This document shows positions 3,810-18,885 of a stretch of 20,873 nt of DNA, in pieces. The DNA lies in the IMG/VR virus record IMGVR_UViG_3300047121_000726, positions 1-20,873 of that record. One strand, written 5' to 3'. The notes beneath the pieces are model-generated. The model was not told the DNA's origin and did not search any database. It saw only the letters and a list, made by a program, of their open reading frames with translations. This DNA comes from a virus. Positions within the stretch are counted from its first letter, which is position 1. Every line of letters starts with the position of its first letter. A program made the translations under genes and the position numbers.

Positions 3810-5354
3810 ATGACGACGACGACCCCGAAACGGCGATCGAGGAAGGGCAAGGAGCAGACCCCACCGGGTCAGCCGATCGCCACGGTCCAGACATGGCTTT
3901 CGTCGCTGAGCGACACGGGCCAGCAGATCACGCCGACTGTCGCGCTTGCGTTCTCGACGGTGTACGCGTGCGTGCAGCTTCTCGCGGATTCGGTCGCGGG
4001 CCTTCCGTGGTGCGTCTATCGCAAGACTCCGTCGGGTCGGATCCTGACTGACGCGCATCCGTGGGCGTGGAAGCTTGCGACGGAGCCGAACCCGGACATG
4101 GACACCTTCACCTTTCGCCAGGTGATGATGGTTTCGGTCCTGCTGACGGGCAACGGCTACGCGCAGATCGTTCCGGACGGCCCGCAGTCGGGGATCTATT
4201 TCCTTCGCCCTGACCGGATGACGCTTCTTCGCCGCGACGGCGAGGTGGTGTACCTGTACTCGGGCCTTGACGGTCCTCGGGCGTTCGTGGCGAGCGAGAT
4301 CTTCCACCTGAAGGCCCTCGGGTTCGACGGCCTGATGGGCCAGAGCCCGATTTCGGTGATGCGGAACGCGATCGGTGCGGCGCTGGGTCAGGAGGGTTTC
4401 GCGTCGAGCTTCTTCCGGAACGGTGCCCGCCCGTCCGGAGCGCTGAAGCTTCCGGGGAAGCTGGACATCGAGGCGCAGAACAGGCTTCGCCAGAGTTGGG
4501 AGAACCTGTACGCCGGCCAGAGCAACGCGGGTCGGACGGTGATCCTCGAGCAGGGCATGGAGTGGATCCCGTTGAGCATTCCGGCCGAGGACGCGCAGTT
4601 CCTCGAGAGCCGTCAGTTCCAGCGGGTCGAGATCTGCTCGGCGTTCCGGGTCCCGCCGCACATGATCGGCGACCAGACGGGCTCGAGCTATTCGAACAAC
4701 GAGCAGGCGAACACGGAGTTCGTTCAGCACACGCTTCGGAGTTGGGTGACTCGTTGGGAGCTCGAGGCGCAGCGGAAGCTGTTCCGCGGCGACCGGTCCC
4801 ACTACTCTCGGATGCGTTTCGACGATTTGCTCCGCGGCGACATGGTCCAGCGATCGCAGTTCTACGAGGCGATGAAGCGGGTCGGCGCCCTGAACGCGAA
4901 CGAGATCCGGATGCGCGAGGACCTGAACGACATCGGTCCGGACGGCGATGTCTACACGATCAGCCAGAACGAGACGCCGGTCGCGCAGAAGCTTGCGGAG
5001 TCGCAGCCTGCTGAGTCGGTGCAGCCCGTGAAGGCGGATCCGCCGAAGGTCGAAGACGAGGACGGCGTTGACCCGGCCTATGCGGACTGGGCGACGGAGA
5101 CGGCTGAGCGGATGATCCGGGTCGAGCTGAACGCGATCACGCGGAAGCGTGAGGGCTGGGAGCCGAATCCGGCGAGGATCCAGGACGCGTTCGGCCCGAT
5201 CGTCCGTTCGGCGGGCCTTCCGGATTCTCGATGTGCGGATGTGGCGCATGCGGTCTGTCGCTGGATGCGGGAGACCGAGTCCGAGCTTTGGGTGCAGACG
5301 CTTCCGGTCCGTGCGGCCGACGCTCTACTGAGGGGTTGCCATGTCGCGGTATGA
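3810..5354 (+). CDS. Portal protein, HK97 family
   Basis: Twelve copies of the portal form the ring through which DNA enters the head. The product (514 aa) has the family hallmarks: STVYACVQLLADSVAGLPW (49-67), LLTGNGYAQI (111-120), FLRPDRM (131-137), the FHLKALGFDGLMGQSPI segment (165-181), FRVPPHMIGD (279-288) and SNNEQANTEFVQHTLRSW (295-312). The portion after about residue 390 is a long C-terminal extension, acidic and proline rich first (KADPPKVEDEDG), then helical up to HVAV; it may be an extended barrel or a species-specific addition. ATG 3810 begins one base after the terL stop. The 3' end overlaps the protease gene by 14 bases. Confidence 0.95.
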   Translation: MTTTTPKRRSRKGKEQTPPGQPIATVQTWLSSLSDTGQQITPTVALAFSTVYACVQLLADSVAGLPWCVYRKTPSGRILTDAHPWAWKLATEPNPDMDTFTFRQVMMVSVLLTGNGYAQIVPDGPQSGIYFLRPDRMTLLRRDGEVVYLYSGLDGPRAFVASEIFHLKALGFDGLMGQSPISVMRNAIGAALGQEGFASSFFRNGARPSGALKLPGKLDIEAQNRLRQSWENLYAGQSNAGRTVILEQGMEWIPLSIPAEDAQFLESRQFQRVEICSAFRVPPHMIGDQTGSSYSNNEQANTEFVQHTLRSWVTRWELEAQRKLFRGDRSHYSRMRFDDLLRGDMVQRSQFYEAMKRVGALNANEIRMREDLNDIGPDGDVYTISQNETPVAQKLAESQPAESVQPVKADPPKVEDEDGVDPAYADWATETAERMIRVELNAITRKREGWEPNPARIQDAFGPIVRSAGLPDSRCADVAHAVCRWMRETESELWVQTLPVRAADALLRGCHVAV

Positions 5355-5913
5355 CAGTCGCTATCTATCGTTCCCCTGCGAGGTCCGCGAGGCATCATCG
5401 CCCGACTCGATCGGGATGCTGGTGGGCACCGCGGTCGTCTTCGACGCGGAGAGCGAGGACCTCGGCGGGTTCGTGGAGACGATCGACCCGAGGGCCCTTG
5501 ACGGGGTGATGGCATCCGATCCGGATGTCCGGGCCTTCTGGAACCACGACACCGGGAGCCTGCTGGCGAGGACGATCGCGGGCACGCTTCGGCTCCGGCT
5601 CGACGCGAAGTCCCTTCGGTACGAGATCGACCTTCCGGACACGAGCGCGGGTCGGGATGTGCTGACGCTCGCGAGGCGAGGCGACCTGCGAGAGAACTCC
5701 TTCGGTTTCGATGTGGACATCGACGGAGACGAGTGGAGCCGTCGGGATGACGGCATGCGGATGCGTCGCCTGAAGCGGATCAGCCGCCTCTACGAGGTGA
5801 GTCCGGTGAGCATTCCGGCGTATCCGCAGACCTCGCTTGCGGTCCGCTCGCTCGAGCGTTGGGAGCGGGAGTCGGTTCGCAGGCACTACACGACGCTCTC
5901 TCCGAGGCGCTGA
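5341..5913 (+). CDS. Prohead maturation protease (HK97 gp4 / peptidase U35 type)
   Basis: This serine protease processes the head proteins after prohead assembly. The 190-residue product carries the three conserved elements: H69 in AFWNHD, S120 in ENSFGFDV and E152 in RLYEVSPVSIPAYPQT. These fit the known His-Ser-Glu arrangement of HK97-type proteases, and the length is typical. The preceding strand GMLVGTAVVFD and the FVETIDPRAL segment are also family features. ATG 5341 lies within the last codons of the portal gene, so expression is coupled. The likely substrate is the delta region of the capsid protein encoded at 7250; the capsid paralogue at 6218 has no such region to remove. A terminator-like hairpin follows directly. 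Confidence 0.94.
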   Translation: MSRYDSRYLSFPCEVREASSPDSIGMLVGTAVVFDAESEDLGGFVETIDPRALDGVMASDPDVRAFWNHDTGSLLARTIAGTLRLRLDAKSLRYEIDLPDTSAGRDVLTLARRGDLRENSFGFDVDIDGDEWSRRDDGMRMRRLKRISRLYEVSPVSIPAYPQTSLAVRSLERWERESVRRHYTTLSPRR

Positions 5914-5932
5914 CACGATCGCCTCTCTCTCT

Positions 5933-5972
5933 GACGGCGGGCCCGACCACGAATCGGGCTCGCTGTCGTTTT
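5933..5972 (+). terminator. Rho-independent-like terminator after the protease gene
   Basis: A 14-bp stem (5933-5946 with 5954-5967, two G-U pairs, otherwise perfect) closes a seven-base loop CCACGAA and is followed by G and TTTT at 5969-5972. It is the best terminator candidate in the window. The T tract is short, so termination could be partial. It would separate the packaging/portal/protease transcript from the capsid transcript. Confidence 0.7.
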
Positions 5973-6000
5973 GGGGATTGAAATCTTGCATGCCCGACTC

Positions 6001-6028
6001 TTGACGGCCGCGCGATTGCCCTGAAGAT
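6001..6028 (+). promoter_or_regulatory. Weak sigma-70-like promoter candidate
   Basis: TTGACG at 6001-6006 matches five of six bases of the -35 consensus. Sixteen bases later GAAGAT (6023-6028) matches three of six bases of a -10 box. The position just after a terminator and before the capsid genes is right, but the -10 is poor and planctomycete promoter rules are not well known to me. Confidence 0.25.
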
Positions 6029-6051
6029 CGTGCGGACATCCATTCTTGCCT

Positions 6052-6116
6052 CATCAGCGGCGACTGCCGCGCGAGAGCGCCCCGGGGCCCTTAGGCCGAC
6101 CGGCGCGTCGCTGATG
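6052..6116 (+). repeat. Long-range inverted repeat in the capsid leader
   Basis: CATCAGCG (6052-6059) is exactly complementary to CGCTGATG (6109-6116), with further partial G+C-rich complementarity inside. The intervening 49 bases could fold into inner helices. It may be a structured 5' leader element or chance pairing in G+C-rich DNA. Confidence 0.35.
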
Positions 6117-6197
6117 ACCGAGATAGCGGCCTCGCGTCTTCACGGGATGCCTGCATCGGACGGCTCACGCACCGTTCGCTGTCGCATTCCGCGCAGC

Positions 6198-6212
6198 GAC
6201 CCCACAAGGGTC
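6198..6212 (+). promoter_or_regulatory. Hairpin covering the ribosome binding site of capsid gene 1
   Basis: GACCC (6198-6202) pairs with GGGTC (6208-6212) across the loop CACAA. The ribosome binding site AAGGG (6206-6210) of the ATG at 6218 lies in the loop and right arm, so folding would lower initiation. Five G+C-rich pairs are modest but sit exactly on the signal. Confidence 0.35.
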
Positions 6213-6217
6213 ACGCC

Positions 6218-7237
6218 ATGCAGTCACAGACGCGAGCGACTCCGGAGTACCTCCGGGCGTTCACCAGATACCTGAAGGTCGGAAAGGGCAACCTGACTCC
6301 GGAAGAGACGCGAGTCCTTCAGGAGGCGGTTTCCGCTGACGGCGGCGTTCTCGCGCCGCAGCTCTACCTCGACCGGATCGCGGAGATCCGCCGACAGGGC
6401 CTCGTCGGGTTCGTCTCGCGCGTCCAGACGGGGAAGAGCATCTCGGTTCCGTACTTCACGACTCCGATCGTGGTGAAGGAACTGGGCGAGTCCCCGACTC
6501 TCGACAGCGGATCGAACTACGGCCTTCAGACGAGCGGCGACGGCTCTCCGTTCAACCTTCCGAACTTCGGCACATCGGGCTCGCCCGACCGCCGCGCGTT
6601 CACGCCCCAGAAGAAGGGCGTCTACACGAAGGTGACGGAGGAGCTTCTCGACGACTCCGAGCCGGATCTTGCCTCGTTCCTGTCGATGCAGATCGCGATC
6701 GCGATCTACGCGGCGGAGGCGAACCAGATCATCAACGGATCTGGATCGTCGGGCCAGCTCAAGGGGATCATCGGCAACTGCGCGGCGGAGTCACGCACGG
6801 TCACGGCGGCATCGGCCACCGCGATCGCGACGGGCACCGGCGCCGCGGCGAACGATCTCGCCGAGCTTCTCGATCTCGTCGACGCGGCCTATGTCGACCG
6901 CGGCGTGTGGCTGATGCACCCTCGCGTGTTCGTGCGGTATGTGGCGGGTTCCGCCGCAGCGTCGCACAGCGTCGAGCGTGACGGTCGTGTGTGGCCGACG
7001 GTCTACGGACTGCCGGTCCTGCTGTGCTCATGGATGCCTCGGGTCGTCACTTCGGGAGCGACCTCGGTCGTCTTCGGCGACCTCAGCCAATACCTCGTTG
7101 CCGAGTCGAAGCCCGGCTACCAGTTCGCCGCGCTGGACCAGGTGCACATCGCATCGGGCCAGATCGGCGTCTACGCGCGCACCCGCTTGGACGGCAATGT
7201 CGTCCAGCCTCGGGCCTTCGCGGCCCTTGTCCACTGA
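6218..7237 (+). CDS. HK97-fold major capsid protein paralogue without delta domain (capsid 1)
   Basis: The product (339 aa) is a Phage_capsid-type protein. Its segment YLRAFTRYLKVGKGNLTPEE (11-30) followed by ADGGVLAPQLYLDRI (40-54) lines up with residues 122-166 of the next gene; further matches are KKGVYTKVTEELLDD (132-146) and LDQVHIASGQIGVYAR (306-321). It begins directly at the N-arm and has no scaffold region, whereas capsid 2 has about 118 extra N-terminal residues. ATG 6218 is supported by AAGGG seven bases upstream, and an in-frame TAG at 6092 limits extension. Relative to capsid 2 it contains a longer glycine/serine/proline-rich loop near residues 92-128, which could be an E-loop or surface insertion. 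Probable roles: minor shell or vertex subunit, or a second shell protein. Not an obvious pseudogene: the frame is intact. Confidence 0.88.
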   Translation: MQSQTRATPEYLRAFTRYLKVGKGNLTPEETRVLQEAVSADGGVLAPQLYLDRIAEIRRQGLVGFVSRVQTGKSISVPYFTTPIVVKELGESPTLDSGSNYGLQTSGDGSPFNLPNFGTSGSPDRRAFTPQKKGVYTKVTEELLDDSEPDLASFLSMQIAIAIYAAEANQIINGSGSSGQLKGIIGNCAAESRTVTAASATAIATGTGAAANDLAELLDLVDAAYVDRGVWLMHPRVFVRYVAGSAAASHSVERDGRVWPTVYGLPVLLCSWMPRVVTSGATSVVFGDLSQYLVAESKPGYQFAALDQVHIASGQIGVYARTRLDGNVVQPRAFAALVH

Positions 7238-7249
7238 AAGAGAACAGTC

Positions 7250-8575
7250 ATGACGCTGAACGAAATCATGTCGCAGATCGAGGCCGGTTGGGCCGAGATG
7301 AAGAAGCTCGTCGACGCGGCGAACGCCAAGGGCGAGCCGATGAGCGGCGAGGAGCAGGAGCGATACCTCAAGATCGAGACCGACATCGATCGCCTCTGCA
7401 AGCTCCGTGACCAGAACACCCGCCACCTCGCGAAGCTCGAGGAGCACATCGCGAAGAACAAGCCCGTTCGCGAGGCTCCGGTCGGGACCGGCGGCTATCG
7501 CCTCGGGAACGGCGAGTACCGCGACCAGCACACCGAGGGCGGATTCGTCGACGAGGACGGGTCCGACGAGCCGTTCACGCCGGCGTCGGTGAAGGCCAGC
7601 CGCTCCAAGCGCTACCTGCGGGCCTACCGGGCCTACATGAAGCGCCCGCACGCCCTGACCCCCGACGAGCTTCGCGTCCTCAACGAGACCACGAACGCCG
7701 ACGGTGCGTTCCTTCCGGCGCAGGAGTACTACGGCAAGCTCGTCGAGACCCGTCAGCTCGCGAACTTCCTCCGCTCCATCTCGACGGTCTTCACGCTCGG
7801 CACGAAGACGGGCAATGTGACCTTCGAATCGAGCCTCGGCGCGGTCGTGTACGAGGGCGAGTCCGCCGCCACCTCGGATGTCACGAGCCAGTTCGACAAC
7901 CTGACGATGAGTTCCAAGAAGCAGGTCTTCCTGACGAAGATCACCGAGGAGCTCATGCAGGACGACCGGTTCGACACCGGTTCGTGGATCAGCTCGCAGA
8001 TCGGCCGCGCGATGGGCCAGAGCGAGCTTTCGGCGATGCTCGGCGGCGCAGCCAACGGGCCTGCCGGCCTGAAGTCGATCGTCACCGTCGGCAACTCGAA
8101 CCTCGTGACCACCGCGGCGTCGGGTGCCCTTACCGCGGACGAGCTGATCGATGTCATCTACACGGTTCCGCAGCAGTACCGCTCGCAGTCCGTTTGGGTG
8201 ATCCACGACACGCTCGCGAAGGCCATCCGCAAGATGGTCATCAAGACCGCGTCGATCGCTACCGCGAACGGCTCGTCGATCACGGCGACTCCGTACCTGT
8301 GGGAGCCGAGCTTCCAGGCGGGCCAGCCCGACAAGCTGCTCGGCTATCCGGTCTACACCACGAATGTCGGTCTCGACGCGTTTGCGGCGAGCAACAAGAA
8401 GGTCGCGCTCTTCGGCGACTTCAGCTACCACTTCATCGCCGACCGCGACGCGGTGTCGATCCGGTTCCTCGACCAGGCGTTCATCGCGAGCGGCCAGTAC
8501 GGGTTCCGTGCCGTCGCCCGCCACGACGCGGGCTGGACCGTGAAGTCCGCGATCTGCGGTCTCCAGATCCTCTGA
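7250..8575 (+). CDS. Major capsid protein, HK97 fold with N-terminal delta (scaffold) domain (capsid 2)
   Basis: The 441-residue product has an N-terminal charged helical region (about 1-75, for example ERYLKIETDIDRLCKL and HLAKLEEHIAKNKP) that looks like a coiled-coil delta domain, a flexible acidic linker (about 76-115), and then the HK97 fold from about residue 120. Mature-domain landmarks include ALTPDELRVLNETTNADGAF (135-154), KKQVFLTKITEELMQDD (223-239), WEPSFQAGQPDKLLGYPVY (351-369) and VALFGDFSYHFIADRD (385-400). Protease cleavage is expected between about residues 105 and 120; I cannot fix the site. The gene starts 12 bases after capsid 1, preceded by AAAGAGAAC. It is the more conventional capsid gene of the pair and presumably the main shell subunit. 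Confidence 0.95.
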   Translation: MTLNEIMSQIEAGWAEMKKLVDAANAKGEPMSGEEQERYLKIETDIDRLCKLRDQNTRHLAKLEEHIAKNKPVREAPVGTGGYRLGNGEYRDQHTEGGFVDEDGSDEPFTPASVKASRSKRYLRAYRAYMKRPHALTPDELRVLNETTNADGAFLPAQEYYGKLVETRQLANFLRSISTVFTLGTKTGNVTFESSLGAVVYEGESAATSDVTSQFDNLTMSSKKQVFLTKITEELMQDDRFDTGSWISSQIGRAMGQSELSAMLGGAANGPAGLKSIVTVGNSNLVTTAASGALTADELIDVIYTVPQQYRSQSVWVIHDTLAKAIRKMVIKTASIATANGSSITATPYLWEPSFQAGQPDKLLGYPVYTTNVGLDAFAASNKKVALFGDFSYHFIADRDAVSIRFLDQAFIASGQYGFRAVARHDAGWTVKSAICGLQIL

Positions 8576-8596: not shown

Positions 8597-8629
8597 ACCC
8601 CTCCGCCCGGGAAACCGGTCGGCAGGGGT
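8597..8629 (+). promoter_or_regulatory. GAAA-capped hairpin after capsid 2, overlapping the next ribosome binding site
   Basis: ACCCCT-CCG-C-CCGG (8597-8610) folds onto CCGG-T-CGG-C-AGGGGT (8615-8629) around a GAAA tetraloop at 8611-8614. The right arm contains AGGGG (8624-8628), which is the ribosome binding site for the ATG at 8632. The stem therefore could limit translation of the next gene or protect the capsid message; the short TTT after it makes a strong terminator less likely. Confidence 0.5.
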
Positions 8630-8631
8630 TT

Positions 8632-8883
8632 ATGAAGGTCCAGTTCCTCACTTCCTGCATCGTTCTCGGCGCCCCCGTTCTCTCCGGCGAGGTCCGCGAT
8701 GTCCCCGACGGCGTCGCTCGCTCGCTGATCGACTGCCGCTATGCGGACCCGTCCGAATCCGATCCGGTCTCGCTCACATCGACGGCGATCAGCCCAGACC
8801 CGTCGATCGTCGAGCGTGAGCGCAAGTCGGAGACCCGGGTGAAGCGTCCGCAGCGCCGGGCGGTGACCGCACGCGACGAGTGA
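8632..8883 (+). CDS. Small head-region protein of unknown function (83 aa)
   Basis: The product has a beta/alpha N-terminal half (MKVQFLTSCIVLGAPVLSGEV, DVPDGVARSLIDCRYADP in separate pieces) and a disordered, charged, proline/serine-rich tail ending in a basic segment (KRPQRRAVTARDE). Short proteins of this kind, with a DVPDxxARxLI-like motif, are often found between capsid and connector genes in siphoviruses, and are usually left unnamed. I start at ATG 8632 because AGGGG lies four bases upstream; the identical octamer ATGAAGGT at 8586 belongs to another frame whose translation is arginine rich and implausible. It ends one base before the connector gene start. Confidence 0.7.
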   Translation: MKVQFLTSCIVLGAPVLSGEVRDVPDGVARSLIDCRYADPSESDPVSLTSTAISPDPSIVERERKSETRVKRPQRRAVTARDE

Positions 8884-11092: not shown

Positions 11093-11425
11093 ATGCTGAC
11101 CAAGGAACAGATCCTCAACGCGAAGCCGCGGATGTCGTCGGTATTCCTGCCCGTTCTGGGCGGGGAGATCAGCCTTCGCGCGATCTCGCTGAACGACAGG
11201 GACGCCCTCGAGGTCTTCATCCAGAAGTCCCGGGGCAACATCCGCGGCATCCGGGCCCGCATGCTTCGCCTGTGCGCGTGCGACGCGGACGGCAAGCCGC
11301 TCTTCGCGGAGCAGGATGAGACGGCGCTGAGCGAACTCGATTCCGGAGCGATCGAGCCGGCGATGGACGAGTGCATGAGGCTTTGCGGCCTGAGGTCGCA
11401 GGAGATCGGCGGGGAAAAAGCGTGA
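11093..11425 (+). CDS. Tail assembly chaperone, upstream frame (gpG-like)
   Basis: The product (110 aa) begins MLTKEQILNAKPRMSSVFLPVLGGEISLRAISLNDRDALEVF, split here as a helix, a beta pair and the L-x-x-x-D-R-D-A motif of tail assembly chaperones. It continues with a helical IRARMLRLCACDADGKPLFAEQD segment and ends EIGGEKA at TGA 11423-11425. These chaperones bind the tape measure protein and recruit tube subunits, and are not part of the virion. The next gene is in the -1 frame and overlaps by GTGA, as expected for the G/GT arrangement. It follows the tube gene after three bases. Confidence 0.8.
   Translation: MLTKEQILNAKPRMSSVFLPVLGGEISLRAISLNDRDALEVFIQKSRGNIRGIRARMLRLCACDADGKPLFAEQDETALSELDSGAIEPAMDECMRLCGLRSQEIGGEKA
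11411..11425 (+). promoter_or_regulatory. Candidate -1 frameshift or reinitiation site in the tail chaperone genes
   Basis: GGGGAAAAAGCGTGA ends the upstream frame. It holds a run of four G and five A immediately before the overlap with GTG 11422. A slip of one base on the AAA codon (11417-11419) would read on as S-V-T-R-P in the downstream frame. The register is not the classical X-XXY-YYZ one. The same GGGGA is also well placed as a ribosome binding site for GTG 11422, so reinitiation is an alternative. Confidence 0.5.
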
Positions 11426-11607
11426 CCCGGCCCGTTCGGAGACTGATGTTCCGACTGGCCGGGCATCTGGGAATGACGGTTCGCGAGCTGTGCGAACGGA
11501 TGGATGCGGTCGAGTTTCGCGAGTGGTCCGACTACCTCTCGTCTGACGAGGGGTCCGAGGACGGGCTGGAGTCGGTTCTGGCGAACGCGATACAGGCAAG
11601 GAAGTGA
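11422..11607 (+). CDS. Tail assembly chaperone, downstream frame (gpT-like)
   Basis: The 61 residues following GTG 11422 contain FRLAGHLGMTVRELCERMDA and EFREWSDYLSSDE, which match the T domain pattern of lambda-type chaperones (an L-G-M/C-T-V-x-E-L helix followed by E-F/L-x-x-W-x-x-Y). In lambda and HK97 the T region is made as a fusion to G by a -1 frameshift; this frame is -1 relative to its neighbour, so a fused protein from 11093 to 11607 is likely. The alternative is separate translation from GTG 11422 (GTGA overlap). The tape measure gene starts four bases after the stop, where this gene always stands in siphoviruses. Confidence 0.78.
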   Translation: MTRPVRRLMFRLAGHLGMTVRELCERMDAVEFREWSDYLSSDEGSEDGLESVLANAIQARK

Positions 11608-11610
11608 ACG

Positions 11611-12354
11611 ATGGCCGTCGTAGGCAACCTGTTCGTCAACATCGCGGCGAAGACGAGCGAGTTCTCCAGGGGAATCGCCGGTGTCGTCGAGCGCCTCCAG
11701 AGGCTTCCGATCGCCGGTCGCCTCTCGGCGATCGCGTTGTCCGGTGCGATGATCTACGAGTTCGGCCGCATCACCAGGCAGGCTCTTTTCCGGTTCGCGG
11801 AGACCCGCGAGTCGATCTACTCGATCACCAAGACCTTCCGCGAACTCGAGCTCGCGGCCGCCCGATCCCTTGCTCCGGTCCTGAATGTCCTGACGGGCAT
11901 CCTCGACACGAAGCTGAAGGGCTGGCTTGACGACTCGTCGGCCGGAATGAGTGCGTTCGGCGCTGTGGCCGGGGTCGTCGGCGGTGCCGTTCAGGCGACA
12001 TTCAACGGCGTCGAGAGCGCGATCAGGTCTGCGGGCCTCGTCATCACGGGATTCGCGACGGCGCTCGCGTCGATCGTCGAGACGGTCATGTACCTCGCCT
12101 CCTTCGGATCGACCGACTTCGAGTGGACGAGGACCCTGAAGGGCGCCACCGCGTCCATGTGGAGCGACGCGAAGAACTCGATCTATGACATGGGCCAGCA
12201 GCCGAGCGCCTTCCGGGCCGGCGTGACGGGAACCGTCAACGGACGGCGACTGACCGAGACGGGCACGATGGGCAGCGAGGAGCTGCTGATGATGGCCCGC
12301 AGGCAGGTCGAGCTTCTCCGCGAGATCAACCAGAAGGTCGGGGGGGTGCGCTGA
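11611..12354 (+). CDS. Tail tape measure protein, unusually short
   Basis: The product (247 aa) opens MAVVGNLFVNIAAKTSEFSRG, the characteristic tape measure start (GxLxVxIxAxTxxFxxG), followed by helical and hydrophobic stretches (LSAIALSGAMIYEF, AFGAVAGVVGGAVQATF, SAGLVITGFATALASIVETVMYLASF) and ends with LLREINQKVGG, a common tape measure tail. Tape measure proteins set tail length and are later ejected with the DNA. At roughly 1.5 angstrom per residue it would specify a tail near 35-40 nm, far below lambda, whose tape measure exceeds 850 residues. The gene follows the chaperone pair, as expected, with AAGGAAG upstream of ATG 11611. The stop overlaps the next ATG at 12354. Confidence 0.85.
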   Translation: MAVVGNLFVNIAAKTSEFSRGIAGVVERLQRLPIAGRLSAIALSGAMIYEFGRITRQALFRFAETRESIYSITKTFRELELAAARSLAPVLNVLTGILDTKLKGWLDDSSAGMSAFGAVAGVVGGAVQATFNGVESAIRSAGLVITGFATALASIVETVMYLASFGSTDFEWTRTLKGATASMWSDAKNSIYDMGQQPSAFRAGVTGTVNGRRLTETGTMGSEELLMMARRQVELLREINQKVGGVR

Positions 12355-13229
12355 TGCCCGACTTCTCGATCATCGAGACCACCGACACGCGGGCCGTCGA
12401 GATCGTCACGCCGGGCCAGCCGAGCCGGTTCGTGCGGACATTCACCGCACTCATCGACACCGCCAACACCGGCGGTGCGGCGCTCGACAACTCGCAGGAA
12501 CTCATCAACGAGCTTTGGTCGCAGTACTCGGTCGCGATCCGGGAGCGGCTGACCTCGACGAGTTCGTTCATCTGCCGTCGGATCGCGTTCGAGCCGATTC
12601 CGGACAGTTCGAACTTCGACATCCGGGCGGAGTACGAGACCTTCGCGAACCGCTGCGACGCGACGACCGAGGGATTCGTCGCCCGTCCGCCGTTCGTGCG
12701 TCGGCAATGCCAGTCCGCCGACCGGATGTTCGACCTCTACCGCGAGGGGGTCACGATTCCGACGAACGGCGATCCGGTGAGCACGGCGGACATCGGCGGA
12801 ACGGCGGTCGACCAGCAGGGACGCCCGATCGCGGTTCCGATCAACACCGTCGAGCTTCAGATCGACACGCTCTACGACACCACCGACTGCTTCGATTCGG
12901 AGGTCGCGTACCTGTCGTACCTGAACCATCGGAACAGTGTCGCCGCATTCGGATTCCCGGTCGGTCAGCTTCTCTTTCGGTCCGCCGTGATCAGCGAGGT
13001 CGGGCCGGAGTGGTATCAGATCACCTACCGGATCCTCGCCGACGAGAAGTACCACCTCAAGCAGATCCCGAAGCTCGACATCAACGGCAATGTGCAGCTC
13101 ACGGGCACGAGCGGCATCGGAACCGCGGCGTCGGTCTACTGGTTCCAGCCATACAAGGACAAGGTCGATTTCGAGCTCCTGTTCACCGCCGAGGAATGGG
13201 ACTACCTGACGAGGACCTGCCCGCCATGA
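12354..13229 (+). CDS. Probable tail tip / distal tail protein (291 aa), unknown family
   Basis: This gene directly follows the tape measure gene (TGATG overlap at 12354), the usual place of the distal tail protein. The product starts SIIETTDTRAVEIVTPGQPSR as a probable beta hairpin, contains a helix NSQELINELWSQYSVAIRERL (about 47-66), and then an extended beta-rich body with VELQIDTLYDTTD and a YQITYRILADEKYHLKQIP segment near residues 221-240. Repeated FDLYREG, NHRNSV and aromatic residues suggest a globular structural protein. Five cysteines are spread along it. I do not recognise the family; the role is from position only. It overlaps the following gene by four bases (ATGA 13226-13229). 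Confidence 0.7.
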   Translation: MPDFSIIETTDTRAVEIVTPGQPSRFVRTFTALIDTANTGGAALDNSQELINELWSQYSVAIRERLTSTSSFICRRIAFEPIPDSSNFDIRAEYETFANRCDATTEGFVARPPFVRRQCQSADRMFDLYREGVTIPTNGDPVSTADIGGTAVDQQGRPIAVPINTVELQIDTLYDTTDCFDSEVAYLSYLNHRNSVAAFGFPVGQLLFRSAVISEVGPEWYQITYRILADEKYHLKQIPKLDINGNVQLTGTSGIGTAASVYWFQPYKDKVDFELLFTAEEWDYLTRTCPP

Positions 13230-13717
13230 CGCGCACCCGCTTCACGCGAGGGGACGGTGCGCTGACGGCCGTGGAGATGAACCGGCAGCGCGATCTCACG
13301 CGCGTCGTCGAGCGCTACGGGCCCGCGCTTCCGCAGGCCGCGAAGGCGACCGAGACGCCGGGGAAGGCGCTCCCGTACTTCTGGGCGAAGATCACCGGCT
13401 ACTCGGCGTGGGGCTCGTTCCTGTACCGCTGGAAGTACTCGTTCGAGGAGATGCGATGGGAGGTCTCGTCGAGCACCTTCGTCACGATCACGGGCGGGAT
13501 CGTCGGAACGAGCAACGCCTACAACGCGAACGAGGCGTTCAACACGAACGCGGCGACGGTGCTCGCGCCGGGCTACCTCGTCGCCAACATCCCCGCGGGC
13601 TTCTCCTACCAGCCGATTCAGGGGAATCCCGTCGTCCTCATGATGCCGCATGTCACGCAGAGCGGCGAGCAGATCTTCATGTTCTGCGCACAGAACACCA
13701 TCGACGGAGCCTGCTGA
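13226..13717 (+). CDS. Probable tail structural protein (163 aa), unknown family
   Basis: ATG 13226 overlaps the previous stop. The first 45 residues are basic and probably helical (RGDGALTAVEMNRQRDLTRVV, split by flexible proline/alanine segments). Residues 49-80 (LPYFWAKITGYSAWGSFLYRWKYS) are strikingly aromatic and look like an OB-like or barrel strand set, followed by small-residue-rich strands and a closing QIFMFCAQNTIDGAC. The pattern FWAKIT...YxWxE-like recurs in fibre-region proteins of phages, so I regard it as a minor tail protein, but the family is not known to me. The TGA at 13715 and next ATG at 13719 are separated by one base. Confidence 0.65.
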   Translation: MTRTRFTRGDGALTAVEMNRQRDLTRVVERYGPALPQAAKATETPGKALPYFWAKITGYSAWGSFLYRWKYSFEEMRWEVSSSTFVTITGGIVGTSNAYNANEAFNTNAATVLAPGYLVANIPAGFSYQPIQGNPVVLMMPHVTQSGEQIFMFCAQNTIDGAC

Positions 13718-13718
13718 C

Positions 13719-14087
13719 ATGGCCGACACGCTCAACATCACGATCGACCAGAACGCGACCTTCGTGCAGGCCCTCCAGTGGCTCGACTCCAACGACTCGC
13801 CGGTGAACCTGACGGGCTATGCGGCCCGGCTGGTCGTCAAGAGCGCCTACGAGGCCGCGATCGGTCAGGCGATCCTCGACATCTCGAGCGGATCCGGCGG
13901 CTCTGGCGACACCACTGGCATCGCGCTTGACTCGAGCGGCAACATCACCGTCGTCGTCGCGAAGGCGACCACGGCGACGCTGGTGCCCGGGAAGTATGTA
14001 TACGACCTGCTCCTCACCGCCGGCGGAGGCCGCGCGACTCGCCTGGTGCAGGGCGATTGCCTCGTGACCGCGGGGGTGACGCCGTGA
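13719..14087 (+). CDS. Baseplate/fibre-associated protein with BppU-N-like beta domain (122 aa)
   Basis: I start at ATG 13719, one base after the preceding stop; the upstream in-frame ATG at 13650 lies in the previous gene. The product has the layout of small immunoglobulin-like receptor-region modules: [15 protein letters not shown] (7-21), [16 protein letters not shown] (27-42), a glycine/serine loop, [27 protein letters not shown] and a final [13 protein letters not shown]. The NLTGYxARLVVKS followed by TxxLxPGxYVYDLxL signature is common in N-terminal baseplate upper protein domains and in phage fibre accessory proteins. It probably connects the tail tip with the collagen-like fibre encoded next. 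The end overlaps that gene by four bases. Confidence 0.75.
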
Positions 14088-15298
14088 GCGTGACCGTGAT
14101 CAGGGAGATCGCGAGAGTCCTCGTCTCGTCCGACCGTCCGTCGGCGAAGGTCTCCGCGCCTGGTCCACAGGGTCCAGCCGGAGCGGCTGGAGCGACCGGA
14201 CCTGCTGGTCCGCAGGGCGCTACCGGTCCGCAAGGGGCGACTGGTCCAGCAGGCGCGACCGGAGCGACGGGTGCCACCGGAGCAACCGGCCCGCAGGGTC
14301 CTGCCGGTCCAACCGGCCCAGAGGGCCCGCAGGGGGCCGCTGGCGCGACCGGAGCGACGGGGGCCACTGGAGCCACCGGACCGCAGGGCGCGACCGGACC
14401 GGAAGGCCCGCAGGGCCCTGCCGGAGCGACGGGCGCGACCGGGGCGACCGGACCGCAGGGACCGGCCGGTACGAGCGCAACCCGCATCGCTGGCCAGTAC
14501 CACGACTTTTCGACGGCGGGTGTCATCGAGTGGGGCGGGCTGGTTCATTTTTACAATGTCTCGGCCTCGAGCTCGCTCGAGGTCTCGCCGCTGCTCGCAC
14601 GCTCCGGCAACGGCGGCTCGATCGCGATCGGCACCGCCGCCATCGTGCAGGCGTCCGAGGCGCAGGCGTTCGGCGTCCTCACGCTCGGCACCGGCACGAC
14701 CAACAACAACACCGGCTATGCGAGCTACGGAACCTCGACCGACATCCTCGTCGGCGTGCCGACCCCGGGCGTCAGCGCTGTCTGCGTCTACGAGAGCGAG
14801 TATGCATTCCGCACCGGAGCGGCGATCCCTGCGGCCGGAACGCAGGGTTACATCCGAGTCGGGTTCAACGGGTCTTTCACGGGCCTCGCCTCGAACGGCA
14901 TGTACCTCGAGTACCTCGTGAACGGCACGACCAACGACACCACATGGTGGTGGGTCAACCGGAACAACGGCGTCGAGACCCGTACGCAGTGCGTCGGCAC
15001 TTCGCTCGCGATCAACACCTACTACTGGATCAAGCTCCGCGTCACGCGAGCCACGAGCGGCGACATGACCTTCGAATGGTGGGTGAACGGAGCGTCCGGC
15101 AGCTTCACCGTCACCAACGCCAATGTCGGCACCGCAAATGTCCCCGTCGGGACCAACCGTTCCTTCGGGTTCGGAGCCATCGAAAGCAAGGCCGGAACGG
15201 CTCACGCGACGACGCAGGTCCTGGAGCACGACTTCGTCGCGTGGCGCATCCGCCGACCGTTCGCACCCACCTACTCGCCGACGCTCTTTGTGGCGTAG
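14084..15298 (+). CDS. Collagen-like tail fibre with concanavalin A-like C-terminal domain
   Basis: The 404-residue product has an N-terminal region ([15 protein letters not shown], 2-16) that may bind the tail, then 35 uninterrupted Gly-X-Y triplets (residues 27-131) rich in [12 protein letters not shown] and GPEGPQ, and then a beta-rich globular domain (about 135-404) with features of a LamG/ConA-like jelly roll ([56 protein letters not shown]). Such proteins form trimers in which a collagen stalk carries a receptor-binding head. GTG 14084 overlaps the previous stop; GGGGGTGA stands upstream, and an ATG nine codons earlier lacks such support. The right end is followed by a 21-base gap. Confidence 0.85.
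14162..14470 (+). repeat. Gly-X-Y tandem repeat DNA inside the fibre gene
   Basis: Thirty-five consecutive nine-base units encode Gly-X-Y. Individual units such as those for GAT GAT and GPQ GPA recur many times with only third-base changes. Slippage or recombination could change stalk length. On the opposite strand the same DNA gives a long proline/alanine frame, which is a mirror artefact. Confidence 0.9.
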
Positions 15299-18259: not shown

Positions 18260-18885
18260 GTTCGCCCGCGTTCAGCATCACCGTCGCTTCCCGGTTCGAC
18301 ACCGCCGCCGGGCCCGTCTCCACGCAGGCCGACACCATCTCGGCCGTCGGGCTCGGGCTCTTTCGTCGGATGTCGACGAGCGGCCCCGCCGGGTTGATGT
18401 CGTTCTGGGTCCGATTCGAGATCGACGCGAACGGCGATTCGGTCCGATCCTGGCGGTTCACGGCACAGAACGAGACCGCGCATCCGGTCGAGATCGACAT
18501 CGATCTCGCGCTTGCGTCGTCTCTCGATTGGCACAGGGGCCCGGTTCGCGTCGTGCAGCCGGTCGATGAGTCTGCGATCGTTCTTGCGCGCAAGACCTAC
18601 CGCGTCGGAGCGGAAAGGCTTGGCAACGCCATTCAGGCGGGCGCAGGCGCGATGCGCGACATCGTGCGGATCGCCCTGCCCGGATTCGCGTCCGGGCAGG
18701 CGGTCTGCCGAACCGAACCGAGATTGCCCGCCGATCTTGACGCCGACGGGCGCGTCGACGCCGTGGACCATGCGATACTGCTCGGCGCGTGGTCGCAACA
18801 TCCGCACATCGCGGACATCAACCTCGACGGGCTCGTCGACGCGTCTGACATTGCGATCCTTCTCTCACAATGGAGCACCCAGTGA
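18256..18885 (+). CDS. Virion-region protein with C-terminal dockerin-like EF-hand pair
   Basis: ATG 18256 overlaps the spike stop (ATGA). The product (209 aa) has a beta-rich N-terminal domain of about 150 residues without signal peptide (LMSFWVRFEIDANGD, VRSWRFTAQNETAHPVEID) and a C-terminal tandem of calcium loops: D160-x-D162-x-D164-G-x-V-D168-x-x-D171 followed by HAILLGAW, and D187-x-N189-x-D191-G-x-V-D195-x-x-D198 followed by IAILLSQW. This is the dockerin type I arrangement in the form widespread in planctomycete exported proteins. In cellulosomes dockerins bind cohesins; here the partner is unknown. As the N-terminus lacks an export signal and the gene is translationally linked to the spike, a fibre-attached or virion protein is likely. 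A gene captured from the host is the alternative. Confidence 0.8.
   Translation: MSSPAFSITVASRFDTAAGPVSTQADTISAVGLGLFRRMSTSGPAGLMSFWVRFEIDANGDSVRSWRFTAQNETAHPVEIDIDLALASSLDWHRGPVRVVQPVDESAIVLARKTYRVGAERLGNAIQAGAGAMRDIVRIALPGFASGQAVCRTEPRLPADLDADGRVDAVDHAILLGAWSQHPHIADINLDGLVDASDIAILLSQWSTQ

Follow-up and report, generated by a model that had tools for sequence, protein, structure and literature searches.

A tailed-phage head module with two diverged HK97-fold capsid genes, one of them without the scaffold tower

Introduction

The vertex pentamers of the bacteriophage T4 head are formed by gp24, of which a head contains about 55 copies. According to PMC12407261, no virus other than T4 is known to have two HK97-fold proteins in separate roles, and searches of the open-access literature gave no further example. 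Of the two T4 proteins, gp24 is the low-copy one, residing at the pentamers (PMC9958956, PMC5694885), and the bypass mutations that let gp23 replace gp24 sit in the A domain of gp23 (PMC9958956).

In HK97 the scaffold is part of the capsid protein gp5. Residues 2-66 form coiled-coil towers, which are trimers, two per hexon, wrapping the portal, and the scaffold density beneath the pentons is weakly connected (PMC10275583). In prohead I, residues 76-103 make up the so-called spoke, consisting of a helix (76-88), a turn and a strand docked under the capsomer, and the protease cleaves at 103/104 (PMC10275583). How one protein forms both pentamers and hexamers, and how the towers meet the mismatch between 5-, 6- and 12-fold symmetry, are questions on which the gene pair described here could bear.

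Genomic setting of the capsid genes

The DNA analyzed (hereafter the window) is the IMG/VR virus record IMGVR_UViG_3300047121_000726, 20,873 bases in length, from an uncultivated bacterial virus. The record is incomplete, since a near-identical contig reaches 1.6 kb further left. According to the ORF calls and profile searches the window comprises a tailed-phage structural module in the order RusA, HNH, small and large terminase subunits, portal, S78 protease, capsid 1, capsid 2, a small ORF, gp6-like adaptor, head completion, neck, tail terminator, tail tube, chaperone, a short tape measure candidate and fibers. The interval between the protease and the adaptor thereby holds two HK97-fold capsid genes where one is usual (Table 1). 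In each of the ten annotated relatives examined, a single capsid gene follows the protease.

Table 1. Sequence features in and around the capsid gene pair (positions in the window).
Feature	Position	Strand	Evidence
Prohead protease, S78 family; upstream neighbor of capsid 1	5341..5913	+	PF04586 6.9e-41; PHROG_80 4e-47
Non-coding gap of 304 nt, protease to capsid 1	5914..6217	+	GC3 periodicity absent from all frames
15-bp hairpin followed by TTTT, candidate intrinsic terminator/attenuator	5932..5972	+	folding z -5.2, 0/200 shuffles
Capsid 1 (339 aa), HK97-fold capsid protein lacking the tower	6218..7237	+	PF05065 1.1e-31; AlphaFold2
Capsid 1 residues 9-36: spoke-like helix (9-21), turn/helix (28-35), presumed cleavage region	6242..6325	+	alignment, model
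Capsid 1 E-loop, insertion of ~20 residues, predicted disordered (residues 82-95, 112-121)	6461..6580	+	alignment, model
Capsid 2 (441 aa), HK97-fold capsid protein of full length, coiled-coil delta at the N terminus	7250..8575	+	PF05065 9e-43; AlphaFold2
Capsid 2 coiled-coil scaffold tower, residues 3-69	7256..7456	+	helices 3-27 and 33-69, pLDDT 87-97
Weak hairpin 3' of capsid 2	8597..8632	+	z -0.76, no better than chance

The gap between the protease and capsid 1 genes appears as a structured leader with a terminator-like hairpin inside a compact head operon; in related phages (e.g., L048) the protease and capsid genes nearly touch. The gap contains no relic of a delta domain, as judged by codon periodicity and by matches to the delta domain of capsid 2, both of which were lacking, and no in-frame ATG, GTG or TTG start was found upstream of capsid 1. 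If the hairpin is a terminator, it would give the capsid genes a separate transcript start. Sigma-70 promoter-like sites were not found near the capsid pair, and there was no match to Rfam.

Some features of the tail genes also deserve mention. The sole tape measure candidate (positions 11611-12354; 247 aa; PHROG_305, E 4e-4), taken as the ruler, would mean a very short tail. The tail assembly chaperone gene at 11093-11607 (PHROG_344) is overlapped by a second ORF (PHROG_337), a candidate for programmed frameshifting as in lambda G/GT. The fiber protein encoded at 14057-15298 has collagen-like repeats (PF01391, 2.9e-16), and the protein at 18262-18885 ends with two dockerin-like repeats (PF00404, E 0.003, below the cut-off), which are unusual for a phage tail module and recall planctomycete proteins.

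Two capsid proteins of one family

A first-pass annotation of this DNA had described two tandem, diverged HK97-fold capsid genes, and this was borne out by Pfam, PHROGs and predicted structure. Both proteins pass the PF05065 cut-off (Table 1) and match PHROG_10 (2.5e-34 for capsid 1 and 3.3e-53 for capsid 2), and they align with each other at 27% identity over 354 columns (BLASTP, E 3e-23). All three motif pairs that had been quoted for the mature fold, including YLRAFTRYLK/YLRAYRAYMK and KVTEELLDD/KITEELMQDD, are present. Both frames are intact, as had also been stated, and their start signals were found as Shine-Dalgarno-like sequences 6-9 nt upstream of the two ORFs (AGGGtcacgccATG; AAAGAGaacagtcATG). 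Structure prediction, suggested at that stage as a check, gave models (AlphaFold2; pLDDT 78.8 and pTM 0.77 for capsid 1, pLDDT 83.4 for capsid 2) that match solved HK97-fold capsids: capsid 1 the RcGTA capsid 6tb9 (VIA Z 19.7) and capsid 2 the EcCI2 capsid 9gyi (Z 20.4) and that of RcGTA (Z 20.1). The RcGTA capsid 6tb9 is also the best solved relative by profile (E 8e-67). Fold matches of the T5, SPO1 and encapsulin types score under or level with RcGTA/EcCI2 in the fold lists and were set aside. Sequence and model together indicate that both proteins are PHROG_10/RcGTA-type capsids by descent and that capsid 2, presumably the major capsid protein, carries its own scaffold of the HK97 type.

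Capsid 1 had been described as beginning exactly with the mature domain of capsid 2. The start registers were compared using an alignment with ten characterized relatives and the two structure models. The structural alignments pair residue 10 of capsid 1 with HK97 gp5 residue 76 (prohead I, 8fqk) and residue 124 of capsid 2 with gp5 residue 79; the sequence alignment equates capsid 1 residue 13 with capsid 2 residue 124, and therefore both structural registers agree. With the gp5 cut at 103/104 it follows that capsid 1 begins approximately 33 residues ahead of the cleavage equivalent, so the claim of an exact coincidence had to be abandoned. In the model of capsid 1, residues 9-21 form a helix that is as long (13 residues) as the HK97 spoke helix. 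By structural register and alignment, a spoke segment and a cleavage region precede the mature domain in both proteins; the N-terminal coiled-coil delta is present in capsid 2 and absent from capsid 1. The scaffold domain had been assigned to capsid 2 only, which is correct for the coiled-coil tower and incorrect for the spoke part, kept in capsid 1. In the capsid 2 model residues 71-107 are a disordered linker. As read from the alignment and the models, capsid 1 retains the equivalent of the spoke (gp5 76-103) together with the cleavage region, and what it lacks is the tower (gp5 2-66) and the linker only. Capsid 1 is expected to be cut near residue 33-37, and the neighboring S78 protease would be expected to cut capsid 1 and capsid 2 alike.

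Judged by the family alignment, both copies are accelerated compared to the rest of the family. Out of 69 near-invariant columns, 34 are kept by capsid 1 and 43 by capsid 2; every other member keeps at least 83%. In addition to the E-loop insertion, capsid 1 is without a near-invariant A-domain stretch near QPxLQAGQPD (the Y, P, G and PD columns), which 49 relatives have kept, and capsid 2 has gained residues just ahead of it. The altered A-domain and E-loop of capsid 1 could equally reflect relaxed constraint. The GC3s value of capsid 2 (0.92) is the highest among the long genes, that of the major tail protein being 0.90, and capsid 1 (0.843) is like the average gene (Fisher p 0.001 against capsid 2). 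This codon bias weakly suggests that capsid 2 is the abundant subunit, GC3 being a weak proxy of abundance; one short non-shell gene also reaches 0.93.

Distribution of the pair

The capsid pair was found in three further IMG/VR contigs (3300043803, 3300034012 and 3300044911), the capsid sequences being identical to those of the window; in 3300044911 capsid 2 is interrupted by the contig end. As the same pair is present in independently assembled contigs, it is not an artefact of one assembly. The near-identical copies differ by four SNPs over 12.9 kb, located at 12740-14155 with none in the capsid genes, and all pair carriers recovered are identical across both capsid genes.

More diverged carriers were searched for in several ways. 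Two alignment-based scans of IMG/VR covered at least 142 distinct family capsids, at least 100 of which had at least 1.2 kb on each side, and among the matches listed there was neither a second capsid next door nor another tower-less member. A close match to capsid 2 occurs in 239 of 50,697 phage records and a weak one to capsid 1 in 157, always at a single place per record, and none of the 51 capsid matches listed from 149 Bacillota genomes adjoins another. Degenerate-pattern scans with single-protein queries returned near-identical contigs only, apart from two distant ones with the portal query, and the scan of genome contigs gave one distant single capsid only. The DNA pattern for LDQxxIASGQ, tried as a probe for the pair, matched two unrelated contigs (L032 and L035) and was rejected. 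Single open frames of approximately 820-940 codons, part of which matches the capsid profile, were seen in other viral contigs (L015, L016, L017 and L018); these are probably longer fused head proteins and perhaps protease-capsid fusions.

Origin of the pair

In trees without far outgroups the two capsids are sisters at 96/80, and at 93/97 with wider sampling (bootstrap 93-96%), and either one placed alone goes to the same branch. The rare states common to both cluster in a C-terminal motif, LDQxxIASGQ, which elsewhere reads LNELYAxNGQ. The end branches are long, approximately 2.5 (capsid 1) and 1.9 (capsid 2) changes per site, on a stem of 0.06, and the tree program gives a warning that long branches meet. 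We consider it probable, on these sequence comparisons, that an ancient duplication produced the pair. Alternatively, the second capsid gene may have been acquired by recombination from a different phage with a capsid of this family, an origin that leaves the function free. The top BLAST match of capsid 1 is indeed phage L048 (115 bits), capsid 2 ranking about 49th, and the AU test does not reject a tree in which capsid 1 joins the L047/L048 clade (p 0.096). Against recombination stand the sister grouping, the common branch of the copies placed singly and the shared rare motif, and we regard it as doubtful, although a serious contender. The duplication proposed earlier, with loss of the delta domain from one copy, is thus favored by the sister trees; the loss applies to the tower and not to the whole delta domain.

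Function of capsid 1

The explanation that we prefer, tentatively and somewhat short of an even chance, is that capsid 1 co-assembles into the shell as a minor subunit, most probably one specific to the pentameric vertices in the manner of T4 gp24. A vertex subunit had already been suggested in the first-pass annotation, and the idea fits with the lost A-domain loop, the weaker codon bias of capsid 1 and the example of gp24. Each step beyond an HK97-fold, tower-less protein we infer. Capsid 1 and capsid 2 would be made together, and capsid 1 would join the prohead through shell contacts and be cut by the same protease as capsid 2; because it keeps the capsomer-docking segment and the protease site, it should be able to enter the prohead and be processed. 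The penton would be the most natural site, since the HK97 towers are trimeric with two per hexon, and since the A domain, to which the T4 mutations substituting gp23 for gp24 map, is the part changed most. Five penton subunits are not divisible into tower trimers, a mismatch that a tower-less penton subunit would avoid. The changed A-domain loop at the capsomer axis and the long E-loop may fix the penton geometry, and capsid 1 would need the towers of capsid 2 for portal recruitment. Several points count against the penton model: no diverged relative with the pair was found, T4 gp23 and gp24 have no fused delta domain, and the pentons of HK97 accommodate their scaffold domains with no need of a second protein.

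Other roles have to be weighed against this one. Capsid 1 and capsid 2 might be mixed randomly in both kinds of capsomer, and their mixing would then tune head size or the tower density inside the prohead. A precedent is the two-component Family 2B encapsulin of Streptomyces lydicus, which forms HK97-fold shells whose composition is variable and irregular (PMC12407261); its two shell proteins (9bje and 9bix) each match the capsid 1 model, and the mature lengths inferred for capsid 1 (about 303 aa) and capsid 2 (about 296 aa) are close to equal. The encapsulin pair is, however, about 70% identical, whereas 27% identity and opposite length changes in the A domain make mixed capsomers less likely here, and T4 gp23 and gp24, which are 17% identical, do not mix (PMC12407261). 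We therefore consider random mixing unlikely. That capsid 1 would build a shell of its own, an alternative small particle, is hardly to be expected: its mature fold is complete, and self-assembly is known for proteins of the HK97 fold that have no tower, among them the encapsulins found in its fold matches, but it is without the portal-recruiting tower, the window has one portal and one protease gene only, and its codon bias is not that of a major product.

Capsid 1 may also have left the lattice altogether, as a head-associated protein or as a regulator or inhibitor of assembly (e.g., of the heads of a competing phage or satellite). The drift of both copies far from the family would fit such a role, as would the absence of the portal-contacting tower from capsid 1 alone; the full mature fold predicted and the retained docking segment and cleavage region speak against it, no precedent was found in the open-access literature, and we hold it to be improbable. 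A functionless relic of a duplicated or replaced capsid gene would explain the longer branch of capsid 1 and the loss of half of the near-invariant columns, and paralogs are absent from most dsDNA phage genomes, as cited in PMC5694885. Yet the frame of 339 codons is open, with gene-like coding periodicity, a Shine-Dalgarno-like site and a confident fold, and the persistence of frame, periodicity and fold through saturation-level divergence argues for long purifying selection on capsid 1. The intact frame, its own leader and the Shine-Dalgarno-like site, after about 2.5 changes per site, count against a relic, which we regard as quite unlikely.

Under the penton reading, the scaffold towers would be confined to hexons in a small phage of the HK97/RcGTA type, and a dedicated HK97-fold penton protein would have evolved independently a second time, after T4. 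It is possible rather than likely that a single self-scaffolding capsid was split in this way into a hexon subunit with the tower and a penton subunit lacking it, the second dedicated HK97-fold penton protein after that of T4. A natural pair differing by exactly the tower would separate the role of the tower from that of the spoke, and it could be expressed and tested in E. coli.

Comparison with known systems

Capsid 2 resembles HK97 gp5, which is accompanied by the protease gp4, in having a coiled coil, linker, spoke, cleavage region and HK97 fold next to an S78 protease gene. In HK97, however, one gene serves hexons and pentons, whereas here the full-length gene is preceded by a second copy that has no coiled coil. 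The closest solved relatives of both proteins are the capsids of RcGTA and of the EcCI2 cf-PICI (PHROG_10 family; fold Z 19-20), but in RcGTA both pentamers and hexamers are described as made from its one major capsid protein (PMC7296036). The S. lydicus encapsulin has two co-assembling HK97-fold shell proteins (PMC12407261), similarly to what is proposed here; it differs in being non-viral, in having neither scaffold nor protease and in its components, which are about 70% identical and form mixed pentamers.

T4 shares with the phage described here two diverged HK97-fold proteins in one phage, probably paralogs in the present case, and the presence of a protease (PMC9958956, PMC5694885). T4 has a separate core scaffold, whereas the delta domain is fused to capsid 2 here, and its large prolate head contrasts with a small HK97/RcGTA-type gene module. 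The comparison with T4 is one of how the proteins may work only, the best relatives here being PHROG_10/RcGTA capsids. In this functional sense T4 gp23/gp24 would be the nearest analogue, with the S. lydicus two-component encapsulin as the counterpart for mixed shells. A minor shell subunit beside a full-length one, which is probably what capsid 1 is, has otherwise been described for T4.
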